This document shows, one piece after another, positions 1 through 24,976 of a stretch of 32,373 nt of DNA (its first letter is position 1; the number at the start of each line of letters is the position of its first letter). Under the pieces are notes generated by a model. The model did no database searches and was not told the origin of the DNA. It saw nothing but the letters and a program-made list of their open reading frames with translations. Made by a program: the position numbers and the translations under genes. Location: positions 1-32,373 of the forward strand of contig JARCMD010000196.1 of the NCBI GenBank assembly GCA_030248885.1. Direction: 5' to 3'. The stretch comes from Leptolyngbyaceae cyanobacterium MP9P1.79. Lineage in GTDB: Bacteria; Cyanobacteriota; Cyanobacteriia; JARCMD01.

Positions 1-98
1 AAAGTCCCTCTCCCTAGGGAGAGGGATTTAGGCTTCGACGTGAGCGCTCAGCCGAACGGTGAGGGTGGATCGGGCGGTTACAAAACTGGGATGCACCC
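1..98. repeat. Family A palindromic repeat, copy 1, cut by window start
   Basis: This is the right part of an interspersed repeat shared with 5112-5230 and 22896-23349. It contains an inverted CCCTCTCCCTAGGGAGAGGG palindrome, then a segment holding GAGCGCTCAGCCGAACGG, then GGGTGGATCGGGCGG and a terminal CAAAACTGGGATGCACCC. It matches the 23262-23349 arm almost base for base. Its right end lies 6 bases from the pgi stop codon. Its left end is outside the window. Confidence 0.8.
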
Positions 99-20226: not shown

Positions 20227-20365
20227 TTAGAAGATTTCTGAGAAAGATGTTATCGCTGTAGGGGCGAAGCATCCGGCAGACAAGCTCTTGAACTAACCAG
20301 AAGGTCATTGCCCGGATGCTTCGCCCTTCCGGTGCCTGGTATAAACTTTTCTGGAGATCTCCTTA
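20227..20365. repeat. Family B palindromic element, copy 5
   Basis: The left end is TAGAAGATTTCTGAGAAAG (20228) and the right end is CTTTTCTGGAGATCTCCTTA (20365). The inner arms are GGGGCGAAGCATCCGG (20260-20275) and CCGGATGCTTCGCCC (about 20312-20326). Both edges are TA. The right TA belongs to the stop codon TAA of the debranching-enzyme gene. The left end is 27 bases upstream of the sucrose-phosphatase ATG, so this repeat also forms most of that gene's 5' region. Confidence 0.8.
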
Positions 20366-22648
20366 TGCCTCAATGACGACACGGAGATTGCCACGCTTTT
20401 TGACTACACCACAGGACGTGGTGGTGCCAGAACGCTCAAACTCCAGGTCTAAGAGAGTGGCACCTACTTTGAGATTAGTGAGGGAAAGGCGATTGATGGA
20501 TTCCGGCAGGGCGGGATCAATGATGCGGACATAGTTGCTGGGAGCATCAGGAACCAGGTTAACCATCATTTGAATCAGTTGAAAAATTGTACCCGTGGCC
20601 CACGCTTGGGGAGAGCAGGCAACTGGATATTGCACTGGCTCACTATCTCCGTCGCGCTCATAGCCGCAGAATAGTTCCGGGGGACGGTTATAGGGTTGTT
20701 GCAGGGTCATGTCAAAAAGTCCCTGAGCGAGTTCCAGGGCTTGGTCAATTAAGCCGATCGATCGCAGTCCCAAGGCAGTCAGGCTGTTGTCGTGGGGCCA
20801 AACAGAGCCGACATGATATCCCATGGGGTTATAGGCAGGAGACAAGCTGCTGAGAGTGCGAATTCCCCAGCCGTTAAACATATCAGGCGCTCGCAGGCGT
20901 TCAGCCACGTTGCGGGCTTTTTCGGGAAGGAGAATGCCCAAGTTCAAGCAATGTCCAGGGTTGGAGGTAATGCTATCCACGGGTTTACCGTTGCCATCCA
21001 AAGCCAAGGCGCAGTAATCCTGATCGACCATCCAGAAGTCGCGATTGAAGCGCACCTTGAGTTCCTTGGCTTCTGCCAACCAACGATCGGATAACTCCAG
21101 GTGTTTCAAGGTGTGGGCAATTTCGCTCATGCGGACTTTGGCAGCATAGACATAGGCTTGCACTTCACAGAGGGCGATCGGGCCCGTTGCCAATTGCCCC
21201 GCACTATTGACAATGCAGTCCCCAGAGTCTTTCCAGCCCTGATTTTGCAGCCCGCGACTGGAGCGCCGACTGTAGGAAAGATAGCCTGTTCTCTGACAGT
21301 TGCGATCGATCCAGTCCATCGCAGCCACAGCGTTGGGCCACAATTTTTCGAGAATTTCTTGATCCCGTGTCCAAGCATAATATTCTGCATAAAGCATAAG
21401 CCACAGGGGAGTGGCATCGATCGTGCCATAGTAGGGCGTGTGGGGAATTTCGTGGCACCTAGCCATTTCGCCCAATCGCAGTTCATGCAGAATTTTGCCG
21501 GGTTCTTCTTCACGCCACTCGTCATCGGTTTTGCCTTGATATTCCGCCAAAATCATGAGCGTTTCGCGGGCGATCGTGGCATCCAGCATTAGGGTTTGCG
21601 ATGCGGCAATGAGAGAGTCGCGCCCAAATAAGGTGGAAAACCAAGGCACCCCCGCAGAGAGCGCTTTGCCTTTGCCAAACGTTTGACGCAATTGATAGAC
21701 ATCTCGCTCTGCCTGCTCAATAACTTGATTCAACGCCTTATTGTCCGTGCGAATCTGCATCAATTGCTGTCGCCATGCCTCTTCTTCCATCGTCTCGGCG
21801 GCCTTTGCCTGGGCGAGGTTGACGGGAGTGTGGACTTTAGACACAGAACGATTGTCAGTTAGCAGTTGCAAGCGATAGCCCAACTGCTGTGTTTCATGGG
21901 AATCCAGCTTTAAATTCCACAGAGCCGTGTAACCTTTGAGAAAATCGGGCTGGCGCTGGAAAAATTGGATGCGGGATTCCATAACTGCTCCATCCAACCC
22001 TTGATAAGCCAGGGTGAGTTCCATAAATTGATTGGCACTGAGTGGTGCAGGCTCGGACTCCTCTCCGTTGATCCCTGGTGCTGCTTCATTGATGGGTTTG
22101 TTCGGCACTGACCGTAGCCGTTTGCCACGCCGATCGCGATTGAACCCCCGAATTTCAAACAAGTCGATAAAGTCGGCATCAAAGCTGAGGCTAAGTTCAA
22201 AGCTAACTGGACTGGTGCTGTAGTTAGTGATCGTGAGTTGCTCAAATAAGCCGCCATTCAGCACGATTTCTCGTTGAATCCCGACGGTTTCCGCCGAAAT
22301 TTGGTCGTTGATGCGCGGATTGGCACACAGCACAGACAGCACAAACCCTTTCTTCGCCGTGCTACTCAGCAAAATCGGCAGTTGCCCCTCAATTTGAAGC
22401 TCTAGACGGCTCAAGAAGCGTGTGTCTTGGCAAAACAGCCCTAAACTGCCCTTCGCATCCTGTTCAGAACATCCAGCAATATTGCCTAGCGTATCCGTGA
22501 TTAAAAACAGGTCATCGTCTTTGAGTGTCAGTGTGGGTTGAGGGCTGGCACTATTCACGCAGGGCCAGATGGGAATCTGTAATTCCTCATCGCTGACAAA
22601 CGTTTTGCTGTCTAGTTCAAGAAGCTCTGACATTGTTAAATCTGCCAT
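20363..22648 (-). CDS. Amylo-alpha-1,6-glucosidase / glycogen-debranching-like protein
   Basis: The protein is 761 residues. The first half is the beta-sandwich domain of the glycogen-debranching N-terminal family (LITDTLGNIAGCSEQDAKGS, LGLFCQDTRFLSRLELQ). The second half is an (alpha/alpha)6 catalytic barrel with GVPWFSTLFGRDSLIAASQT, EEPGKILHELRLGEMA, PYYGTIDATPLWLMLYAEYY and NPMGYHVGSVWPHDNSLTAL. Family members hydrolyse alpha-1,6 linkages or act on related oligosaccharides, and the specificity is not settled by sequence. A second ATG five codons in is possible. The stop codon is shared with the end of a B element. It lies between sucrose-phosphatase and sucrose-phosphate synthase on one strand, which suggests a link between stored glucan and sucrose metabolism. 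Confidence 0.9.
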   Translation of the reverse strand: MADLTMSELLELDSKTFVSDEELQIPIWPCVNSASPQPTLTLKDDDLFLITDTLGNIAGCSEQDAKGSLGLFCQDTRFLSRLELQIEGQLPILLSSTAKKGFVLSVLCANPRINDQISAETVGIQREIVLNGGLFEQLTITNYSTSPVSFELSLSFDADFIDLFEIRGFNRDRRGKRLRSVPNKPINEAAPGINGEESEPAPLSANQFMELTLAYQGLDGAVMESRIQFFQRQPDFLKGYTALWNLKLDSHETQQLGYRLQLLTDNRSVSKVHTPVNLAQAKAAETMEEEAWRQQLMQIRTDNKALNQVIEQAERDVYQLRQTFGKGKALSAGVPWFSTLFGRDSLIAASQTLMLDATIARETLMILAEYQGKTDDEWREEEPGKILHELRLGEMARCHEIPHTPYYGTIDATPLWLMLYAEYYAWTRDQEILEKLWPNAVAAMDWIDRNCQRTGYLSYSRRSSRGLQNQGWKDSGDCIVNSAGQLATGPIALCEVQAYVYAAKVRMSEIAHTLKHLELSDRWLAEAKELKVRFNRDFWMVDQDYCALALDGNGKPVDSITSNPGHCLNLGILLPEKARNVAERLRAPDMFNGWGIRTLSSLSPAYNPMGYHVGSVWPHDNSLTALGLRSIGLIDQALELAQGLFDMTLQQPYNRPPELFCGYERDGDSEPVQYPVACSPQAWATGTIFQLIQMMVNLVPDAPSNYVRIIDPALPESINRLSLTNLKVGATLLDLEFERSGTTTSCGVVKKRGNLRVVIEA

Positions 22649-22866: not shown

Positions 22867-23003
22867 TTAAGGAGATTTCTGACAAAGATGTCACCGAATG
22901 CCTCTCACTTTTGTAGATCTCCGATCCGCCCACCCTTCGGGAAGCAAGCTACATCCCCAACCCTTCTCCCTGGGGAGAAGGGAGCCGGAATTCAAAGTCC
23001 CTC

Positions 23004-23011
23004 TCCCTAGG
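23004..23011. repeat. Left 8-bp target-site duplication TCCCTAGG
   Basis: TCCCTAGG immediately precedes the GCTTGTCATTACC terminus and recurs at 23262-23269 right after the other terminus. Removing one copy plus the element restores CCCTCTCCCTAGGGAGAGGG, which is exactly the uninterrupted sequence at window positions 6-25. Confidence 0.9.
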
Positions 23012-23261
23012 GCTTGTCATTACCAACATTTTTGAGAAATCGAAGATTTCTCAAAAATGTGAATTCTAAACCTCTCAGAAGGCCCAAATTGTCGCCCGAA
23101 TCGCCCCCCTGCCCCCCAATTCTGGGGGGTTCTGAGATCGAAGTCCCCCAGAATTGGGGCCTTAAAGCCTTTTAGGCATACATGAAAAGGGGCAAGTGCA
23201 AGGTCTAGAGCATTTGTCAGACACTCTCTAAGCCTTTTAAGAGATGTTGGTAATGACAAGC
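23012..23261. mobile_element. 250-bp MITE-like element with 18-bp terminal inverted repeats
   Basis: It begins GCTTGTCATTACCAACAT and ends with the exact reverse complement ATGTTGGTAATGACAAGC. It is flanked by TCCCTAGG on both sides. Inside are a 15-bp hairpin CATTTTTGAGAAATC / GATTTCTCAAAAATG with a 3-base loop (23027-23059) and a second perfect 15-bp inverted pair CCCCAATTCTGGGGG / CCCCCAGAATTGGGG (23114-23128, 23145-23159). A 79-codon minus frame crosses it but looks like a by-product of the repeats. It is non-autonomous; the parent insertion sequence is not in the window, and I cannot name its family. Confidence 0.9.
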
Positions 23262-23269
23262 TCCCTAGG
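23262..23269. repeat. Right 8-bp target-site duplication TCCCTAGG
   Basis: This is the second copy of the duplication; see 23004-23011. The family A palindrome continues from here into GAGAGGGATTTAGG. Confidence 0.9.
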
Positions 23270-23503
23270 GAGAGGGATTTAGGCTTCGACGTGAGCGCTC
23301 AGCCGAACGGTGAGGGTGGATCGGGCGGTTGCAAAACTGGGATACACCCGATGTCACCCCTGTAGAGGCGAAGCATCTGGTAGATACCCCCTTGAATCAA
23401 CCAGAAGATCGTTGCCCGGATGCTAAGTGCAAGGCACACGCTACGTGAGTGCCCTTCCGTCACCTGGTATAAACTTTTCTGGAAATCTCCTTAACTCCGA
23501 TCG

Positions 23504-24976
23504 CTAACCCGCCTGAACTCTAGCCCCAGTCCCCTTCAAACTGGTAGTCACCTGAGCAGTGGCACCAGATGGGTAGGATGTCCGGGGGACAGGTTGCACA
23601 TTCCACACCTGCTCGTGGGTAATGGATTGGGCGAGCAGGCGGCGGTAGAGGTCACTCAGTTGCACGGCAACTCCTGACCAACTAAAGTTTTGCTGGACTC
23701 GCATTGAGGCTTGCCGTCTCAATTTTCTTGCCCACAACTCATCGGAAAGCACCCGATCGATCGCCTGGGAAAATCCAGTCACATCATGGGGTGCAACCAG
23801 TAGCCCTGTTTCCTCTGGGATCACAGTGAACTTCAGCCCGCCCACATCTGAGGCAATGACTGGGGTGCCGCAGCCCATGGCTTCGATCGCCACCAAGCCA
23901 AAGGGTTCGTAGTGGCTGGGAATAACGCAAACATCCGCTGCCGTGTAATAGAGCGGCAATACATCATGGCCTACCCGGCCGATGAAGTGTGTCTGGTCAC
24001 TCAAGCCCACTTCCTTGACAATTTGTTCGATCCGATCGCGCTCCTGTCCATCTGCCTGACCTGGCTCACTGCCACCAACGATCAGCAGCCGCAGATCAGT
24101 TCCCGCCTCTTTGGATTGGGCACAGGCCCGCACCAGCGTCTCAATCCCTTTGCGGGGATCAAAGCGACCCACATACAGGACGACCTGCTCACTATGACGA
24201 ATTTGCAACCTTGCCCTAGCATCAGATTTCGACGTGACATGAAAATTATCCGTGTCCGTGCCACAGGGGATCACAGCAATGCAGCCCTGCTCAGAAACAA
24301 CCGATCGCAACATCTCCTGTTCTTGGGGGCTGGTGGCTACCACACAGTCTGCCTGCTCCAAAATTTGCTGCTCAACAGCTAAACGAATGTCGGCGATCGA
24401 CGGGCGACTCTTCACCGCCTGATACTTTATCGCTCCCAAGGAATGATAGGTATGCACGAGTTGAATATTGCTGAGTTCCCTCAGGCGCAACCCAATCCAC
24501 GCCGAGAGCCAATAGTTGGTGTGGATGAGCGGATAGTTGGTGCCTTCTTTTGCCTGAAATTTTTGAAACGCCTGCACAAACTGCGGCATGTGATCAAATA
24601 ACTCATCTCGTGGAATAAACGTTTCGGGACCGGCGACGAGGCGAATGGTGCGGCAGTGGGGGGAATGTTGCACGATCGCTGGGTCATTAACATTTACTTT
24701 ACGAGTAAACATATCGACCTGCCATCCCAGTTTTGCCAACGCTTCACCAACTTGCCGCACGTAGACATTTTGCCCTCCAGCTTCCTCTTTGCCAATGTCC
24801 GCCGCAGGGTCACCATGGTCAGAGATTAAGGCAATGGCTTGCCGGGAGGAGTGACGTTGCTGGACAAAGGCAAAGGGAGGATTTGGCGATTGAGTGGAAC
24901 TTTTAACCGGATTTTTAGTTGTATTAGTTAGGGTTGAACTGAGGGGCGATCGGGATTGGGCATCAGCGTTTAACAT
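23504..24976 (-). CDS. spsA: Sucrose-phosphate synthase (unidomainal, cyanobacterial type)
   Basis: The product is a GT4 glycosyltransferase that joins a nucleotide-activated glucose to fructose-6-phosphate, giving sucrose-6-phosphate. Visible motifs are IGKEEAGGQNVYVRQVGEAL (61-80) in the acceptor domain, HTYHSLGAIK (175-184), VGRFDPRKG (269-277) and the EX7E pair Glu357/Glu365 in EPFGLVAIEAMGCGTPVIAS. The pattern matches single-domain SPS of filamentous cyanobacteria, which lack the phosphatase-like C-terminal domain. The protein carries an unusual 45-residue Ser/Thr/Asn-rich N-terminal extension before IALISDHGDP. A GAGGTG ribosome site sits just before the ATG and supports that start. Sucrose-phosphatase is further along on the same strand. 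A related sucrose synthase is less likely, as it would be about 800 residues. Confidence 0.88.
   Translation of the reverse strand: MLNADAQSRSPLSSTLTNTTKNPVKSSTQSPNPPFAFVQQRHSSRQAIALISDHGDPAADIGKEEAGGQNVYVRQVGEALAKLGWQVDMFTRKVNVNDPAIVQHSPHCRTIRLVAGPETFIPRDELFDHMPQFVQAFQKFQAKEGTNYPLIHTNYWLSAWIGLRLRELSNIQLVHTYHSLGAIKYQAVKSRPSIADIRLAVEQQILEQADCVVATSPQEQEMLRSVVSEQGCIAVIPCGTDTDNFHVTSKSDARARLQIRHSEQVVLYVGRFDPRKGIETLVRACAQSKEAGTDLRLLIVGGSEPGQADGQERDRIEQIVKEVGLSDQTHFIGRVGHDVLPLYYTAADVCVIPSHYEPFGLVAIEAMGCGTPVIASDVGGLKFTVIPEETGLLVAPHDVTGFSQAIDRVLSDELWARKLRRQASMRVQQNFSWSGVAVQLSDLYRRLLAQSITHEQVWNVQPVPRTSYPSGATAQVTTSLKGTGARVQAG

Follow-up and report, generated by a model that had tools for sequence, protein, structure and literature searches.

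How did one intergenic site come to hold three repeats, each inside the other, and what decided where the innermost one landed? The window analysed here is a stretch of 32,373 nucleotides (contig JARCMD010000196.1, positions 1 to 32,373) from Leptolyngbyaceae cyanobacterium MP9P1.79, and the site is found at 22868-23493. It lies between the start of a debranching-type gene on one side and the end of a glycosyltransferase gene on the other; no ORF of at least 100 aa was found between 22649 and 23503. The genes and the two outer layers are distributed as follows, with strand given where assigned:

20363-22648, reverse strand: glycogen-debranching-type enzyme gene; the nest is about 220 bp upstream of its start
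22868-23493: layer B, dispersed repeat TAAGGAGATTTC...GAAATCTCCTTA, 163 bp without its insert; the outermost layer, with the greatest divergence
22887-22895: left target duplication GATGTCACC of layer A, inside layer B
22896-23349: layer A, a MITE whose ends are imperfect and of GGGTGCATCTCACTTTTGCA type; 196 bp once the inner element is removed
23350-23358: right target duplication GATGTCACC of layer A
23504-24976, reverse strand: group 1 glycosyltransferase gene (GT4 domains by Pfam; sucrose-phosphate-synthase-like according to the original prediction)

The original prediction described a three-layer nested insertion, and its junctions, duplications and rebuilt layers were all verified on the sequence. 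Excision of the 250-bp element restores, as proposed, a family A palindrome: the resulting unit measures 196 bp, and its part 99-196 is 98% identical to window 1-98. Around this unit GATGTCACC is exact at both 22887-22895 and 23350-23358, bracketing 22896-23349. Excision of layer A in turn gives a family B unit of 163 bp, which aligns with 20227-20365 as announced (82.6% over 92 bp and 90.7% over 43 bp). The proposed search of the genome for layers lacking the inner ones also succeeded: family A copies contiguous across the inner junction are present on C281 (96%) and C198 (93%) of the strain's own genome (G000), and many family B copies there are unbroken across the layer A junction. The nest is real, and a chance origin is ruled out because the genome contains dozens more copies of the inner element and 138 hits of its 17-bp TIR at two mismatches or fewer, against 0 for a reversed-pattern control.

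The duplications, together with the uninterrupted A and B copies elsewhere in the genome, support B as the first layer, A as the second and the 250-bp element as the last. Copy identities agree with this order, only loosely: 82-88% for B, 93-99% over the matched part for the nearest A, and up to 94% over the full length for the inner element. In the flanking protein, identity to the closest named relatives is about 70%. Layer B is older than layer A. No recognisable target duplication was observed at family B copies, so that we infer its arrival from copy number only, and just two of the three insertions are demonstrated with duplications. The claim of three time-ordered insertions therefore stands for the order, and for duplication-backed transposition it stands for layer A and the inner element but not for layer B.

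The features of the inner element and of its target are the following:

23013-23260, forward strand: inner element, non-coding MITE core CTTGTC...GACAAG, 248 bp, or 250 bp with the ambiguous flanking G/C
23013-23029, forward strand: left TIR CTTGTCATTACCAACAT, its ends set from sister copies
23244-23260, reverse strand: right TIR, reverse complement of CTTGTCATTACCAACAT
23114-23159: internal hairpin CCCCAATTCTGGGGG / CCCCCAGAATTGGGG, resembling a dispersed cyanobacterial hairpin into which other MITE copies insert
23003-23012: left inner target duplication CTCCCTAGGG (8-bp reading TCCCTAGG, 23004-23011)
23261-23270: right inner target duplication CTCCCTAGGG (8-bp reading 23262-23269)
22999-23007: left arm CCCTCTCCC of the interrupted layer A palindrome
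23268-23276: right arm GGGAGAGGG of the interrupted layer A palindrome

The flanking TCCCTAGG duplication is indeed present, exact at both 23004-23011 and 23262-23269 and bracketing 23012-23261; its length, however, is ambiguous. As the target CCCTCTCCCTAGGGAGAGGG is itself palindromic, the duplication reads either as TCCCTAGG around a 250-bp element or as CTCCCTAGGG around a 248-bp element, that is 8 or 10 bp. Paired sister copies showed an exact 9-bp duplication in ten cases and, in four others, a duplication of 9-10 bp that contains one mismatch; in the same survey three MITE elements were without target duplication. A MITE copy at about 2934-3384 of C49 (L037/L070) has no duplication; each of its flanks is half of a different family A palindrome, so that it resembles a recombinant. 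With the same ends, the MITE exists in several lengths in the genome: 167, 209, 226, 248, 333 and 370 bp (L229, L255, L072, L001, L076 and L084).

To judge from sequence comparison, the inner element is a MITE of an IS4-family, IS50/Tn5-type IS. Two pieces of such an IS were identified in the genome, both running into contig ends. On C552, the TIR CTTGTCATTACCAACATCTCCTAAG is followed by a frameshifted transposase and then by an interrupting family A copy; this transposase matches PF14706 (Pfam, E = 7.6e-13) and, above the cut-off, the IS4/Tn5 DNA-binding model NF049926 (NCBIfam). On C341, the other end CTTGTCATTACCAACATTTTT is present, and the C-terminal coding part of the transposase runs on into that repeat; this piece carries the YREK motif YACRWLIEEYHRCLK and matches Tn5 with an E-value of 4.4e-19. 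A phmmer search with the broken transposase of C552 yielded nothing credible in the PDB, whereas the C341 piece and a relative, L290, did match. The left end of the MITE runs on as ATTTTT, as on C341, and the right end as ATCTCYTAA, as on C552; the MITE therefore bears that IS's two distinct ends. Since both ends match those of a transposase-bearing IS, a Tn5-like transposase would move the MITE in trans. No intact parent IS was found in the strain's own assembly, which is 89% complete and whose contigs break at these repeats.

The ends of the IS50 subgroup, its Y(2)R(3)E(6)K motif, its direct repeats of 8-9 bp and its length of 1350-1550 bp are given in the passages of De Palmenaer et al. (2008, PMC2266710) that treat this subgroup. 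The likeness to IS50/Tn5 as described there lies in the Tn5-matching transposase fragments, the YREK motif, the CT... ends and the 9-bp duplications, direct repeats at MITE copies being mostly 9 bp and thus within the published range; at the two incomplete IS pieces no such repeats were observed. Compared with the end consensus CW------Y---CA-A--W- in these passages, CTTGTCATTACCAACATTTT fits except for an A, not a C, at position 13, a difference found in the MITE and IS ends here; the TIR of a relative, CTATCCATTACCCACATC, fits at the positions covered.

The ends of family A are of a different kind, namely of GGGTGCATCTCACTTTTGCA and GGGTGCATCCCAGTTTTGTA types, and its copies are flanked by duplications of 9 bp, or in a few cases 8 bp. 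In other cyanobacteria, ISs some 1.17 kb long have layer A-type ends and carry ISKra4-type transposases (E = 8.9e-50 for L431 and 9.3e-23 for L437, both matches being of partial ORFs and below the whole-protein cut-off). These ISs have duplications of 8 bp (L417) and 9 bp (L437), and target duplications of 8-9 bp are typical of the ISKra4 family. The original prediction had read two transposition machineries from the contrast between 8 and 9 bp. Both families typically leave 9 bp, so this contrast is no evidence; two distinct machineries for the inner element and layer A are nevertheless indicated by comparison of the elements, because their TIRs are unrelated and the probable parent transposases differ (IS4/Tn5-type against ISKra4 type).

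The original prediction overlooked that the inner element systematically targets palindrome axes. An arm resembling CCCTCTCCC adjoins 82 of the 97 distinct inner-element ends, against 2.5% of background positions counted over 130 kb of the strain's genome. At the reconstructed MITE sites, dyad scores taken at the centre of the duplication averaged 7.1 against a background of 2.8 (p = 4e-9). The genome retains 328 palindromes of the interrupted-target kind that are uninterrupted, and non-palindromic MITE targets also occur (AACCAACAA at L002 and CCTTACAAC at L203).

Because the MITE sites all belong to one palindrome family, other cyanobacteria were examined for ISs related to the parent. IS boundaries were set by TIR and duplication only, palindromes not being used, and L349 and L397, whose automatic IS calls are seemingly mis-bounded, were left out of the statistics. 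The dyad score of the 40 distinct IS50-like insertions was 6.7 against 2.8 (p = 2e-19), and 23 of them were at or above the 99th background percentile; insertion sites of one genome often share a repeat family, so these are not fully independent. Among the target palindromes are some of unrelated sequence: CCTCCGGC-TTT-GCCGGAGG at L279 (L285 is similar), CCCCCCTT-AAA-AAGGGGGG at L290, whose transposase of 477 aa is Tn5-like along its full length (E = 3.7e-39), and CCCCTTCTCCC..GGGAGAAGGGG at L350. In G056, four copies are located within CCCCTCTCCC..GGGAGAGGGG, like the one in the window. The bias is present in the CTATCC, CTAATC and GCTAC groups; by contrast, ISs that end in CTGACTTTTCC/CTTACTTTTCC and mostly duplicate 10 bp (L396, L399, L400 and L402) show little or none. 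One insertion (L401) is located between two HIP-like GGCGATCGCC palindromes, the arrangement being centred on the duplication. These results show that the MITE and relatives of its parent IS strongly prefer palindrome axes.

The transposase itself may read the two-fold symmetry of the target, as a duplex dyad or as an extruded hairpin, and the simplest account is a transposase dimer reading a target that has two-fold symmetry over about 17-19 bp. The abundant family A palindromes would then act as landing pads, so that such nests would be frequent. It is conceivable, and we propose it tentatively, that this cyanobacterial Tn5-type clade picks its targets by self-complementarity (hairpin, cruciform or general dyad) and not by fixed sequence, the MITE inheriting this targeting. 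If so, any palindromic repeat, whatever its sequence, would offer a landing pad.

The structure of the sites bears on another explanation, which has about an even chance of being correct: a symmetric duplex would be recognised, in the form of a 9-bp cut flanked by two pyrimidine-rich half-sites, and palindromes would supply both half-sites with no hairpin involved. At offsets 3-8, left half-sites are nearly always C/T and right halves G/A. At IS sites, strong symmetry extends no further than about 8-9 bp from the axis and falls off beyond, a span that could correspond to the reach of a duplex-reading transposase dimer. Tolerance of non-palindromic targets by the MITE also agrees with duplex half-sites, as does the palindromic target preference described for Tn5, in which GC marks the ends of the duplication (PMC1525189). 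On the other hand, the halves covary within sites beyond what a symmetric consensus would predict: half-sites matched their own partner at 5.05 of 8 positions against 3.59 for shuffled partners (p <= 0.0005), and at 4.54 against 3.27 once repeated targets were removed. The outer arm pairs (offset 8-13) are also slightly more often complementary than in controls matched for inner symmetry (0.42 against 0.27, p = 1e-4).

Survival bias, with insertion everywhere and persistence only in harmless intergenic palindromic repeats, is improbable. The targets are indeed intergenic repeats that are numerous in the genome, but the insertions sit on the axis and not just somewhere in the repeat, and the family A sites, in the same genome and under the same selection, show no dyad bias (2.3 against 2.8, p = 0.96).

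Targeting of the palindrome axis by an IS50/Tn5-type element thus completes an account of the whole locus that we consider highly probable. The intergenic region would have received at least two, and probably three, small non-autonomous elements in succession, the old repeat B first. A MITE with ISKra4-type ends (layer A) would have entered B, duplicating GATGTCACC, and the IS50/Tn5-type MITE (IS4 family), moved in trans, would then have entered the dyad axis of the CCCTCTCCCTAGGGAGAGGG palindrome of layer A. That the nest is instead a product of recombination or assembly of dispersed repeats, involving no successive insertions, is hardly credible: numerous contigs do terminate within these repeats, and the C49 copy without duplication resembles a two-palindrome recombinant, but both inner layers are bracketed by exact duplications, the window copy is far inside a 32-kb contig and each outer layer has uninterrupted copies in the genome.

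ISRm22 (IS4 family, IS4Sa subgroup) and ISPsy8 (IS3 family) are established cases of ISs that enter repetitive extragenic palindromes (REP) at the palindromy axis, and in this they are like the present elements (Tobes and Pareja 2006, PMC1525189). Each of the two uses one REP family in one species, whereas here several Tn5-type ISs and a MITE use unrelated palindromes across cyanobacteria; the duplications are 9 bp here, compared with 6 or 3 bp. IS1397, ISKpn1 and IS621 are of the IS3 and IS110 families, and their chemistry is unlike that of the Tn5-type elements here. They likewise land in REP or palindromic units, as cited in passages of PMC1525189. The passages on IS50 in PMC2266710 report no strong per-site palindrome preference, which is seen here. 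Small mobile repeats and MITEs of cyanobacteria are likewise dispersed and non-coding (Elhai et al. 2008; Nezha, Zhou et al. 2008; as presented in passages of PMC3733652). No report of Tn5-clade targeting of unrelated palindromes in cyanobacteria was found in the open-access literature, a scope that leaves key cyanobacterial repeat papers outside. Axis insertion is known for a few ISs, and what we observed looks like a Tn5-clade version of it, common to IS and MITE. The Tn5 transposase is a widely used enzyme, its structures have been solved, and target choice by such transposases is only partly understood. Natural relatives that insert at the axes of palindromes of various sequences are a comparison set for finding the part of the protein that reads the target. 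Axis targeting would also explain the pile-ups of small repeats in such genomes, and the readable insertion order at one site.

The distribution of the MITE beyond its own genome was also considered. Among 390 cyanobacterial genomes, for which the best two candidates per genome were retained so that a diverged copy could be missed, no full-length MITE was found. Part-element matches occur in 120 of the 390, mostly at element positions about 90-148, and the middle of the MITE (window 23101-23159) matches dispersed hairpins in many other cyanobacteria. A hairpin of CCCCAATTCTGGGG type forms the MITE interior, and such hairpins also hold the ends of the elements or ISs L075 (C73), L077 (C143) and L023 (C552); as this hairpin is both target and MITE interior, copies nest in copies. 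Another nest is visible at about 1-1048 of C552, where the IS fragment (L023) is broken by a family A copy at the contig end.
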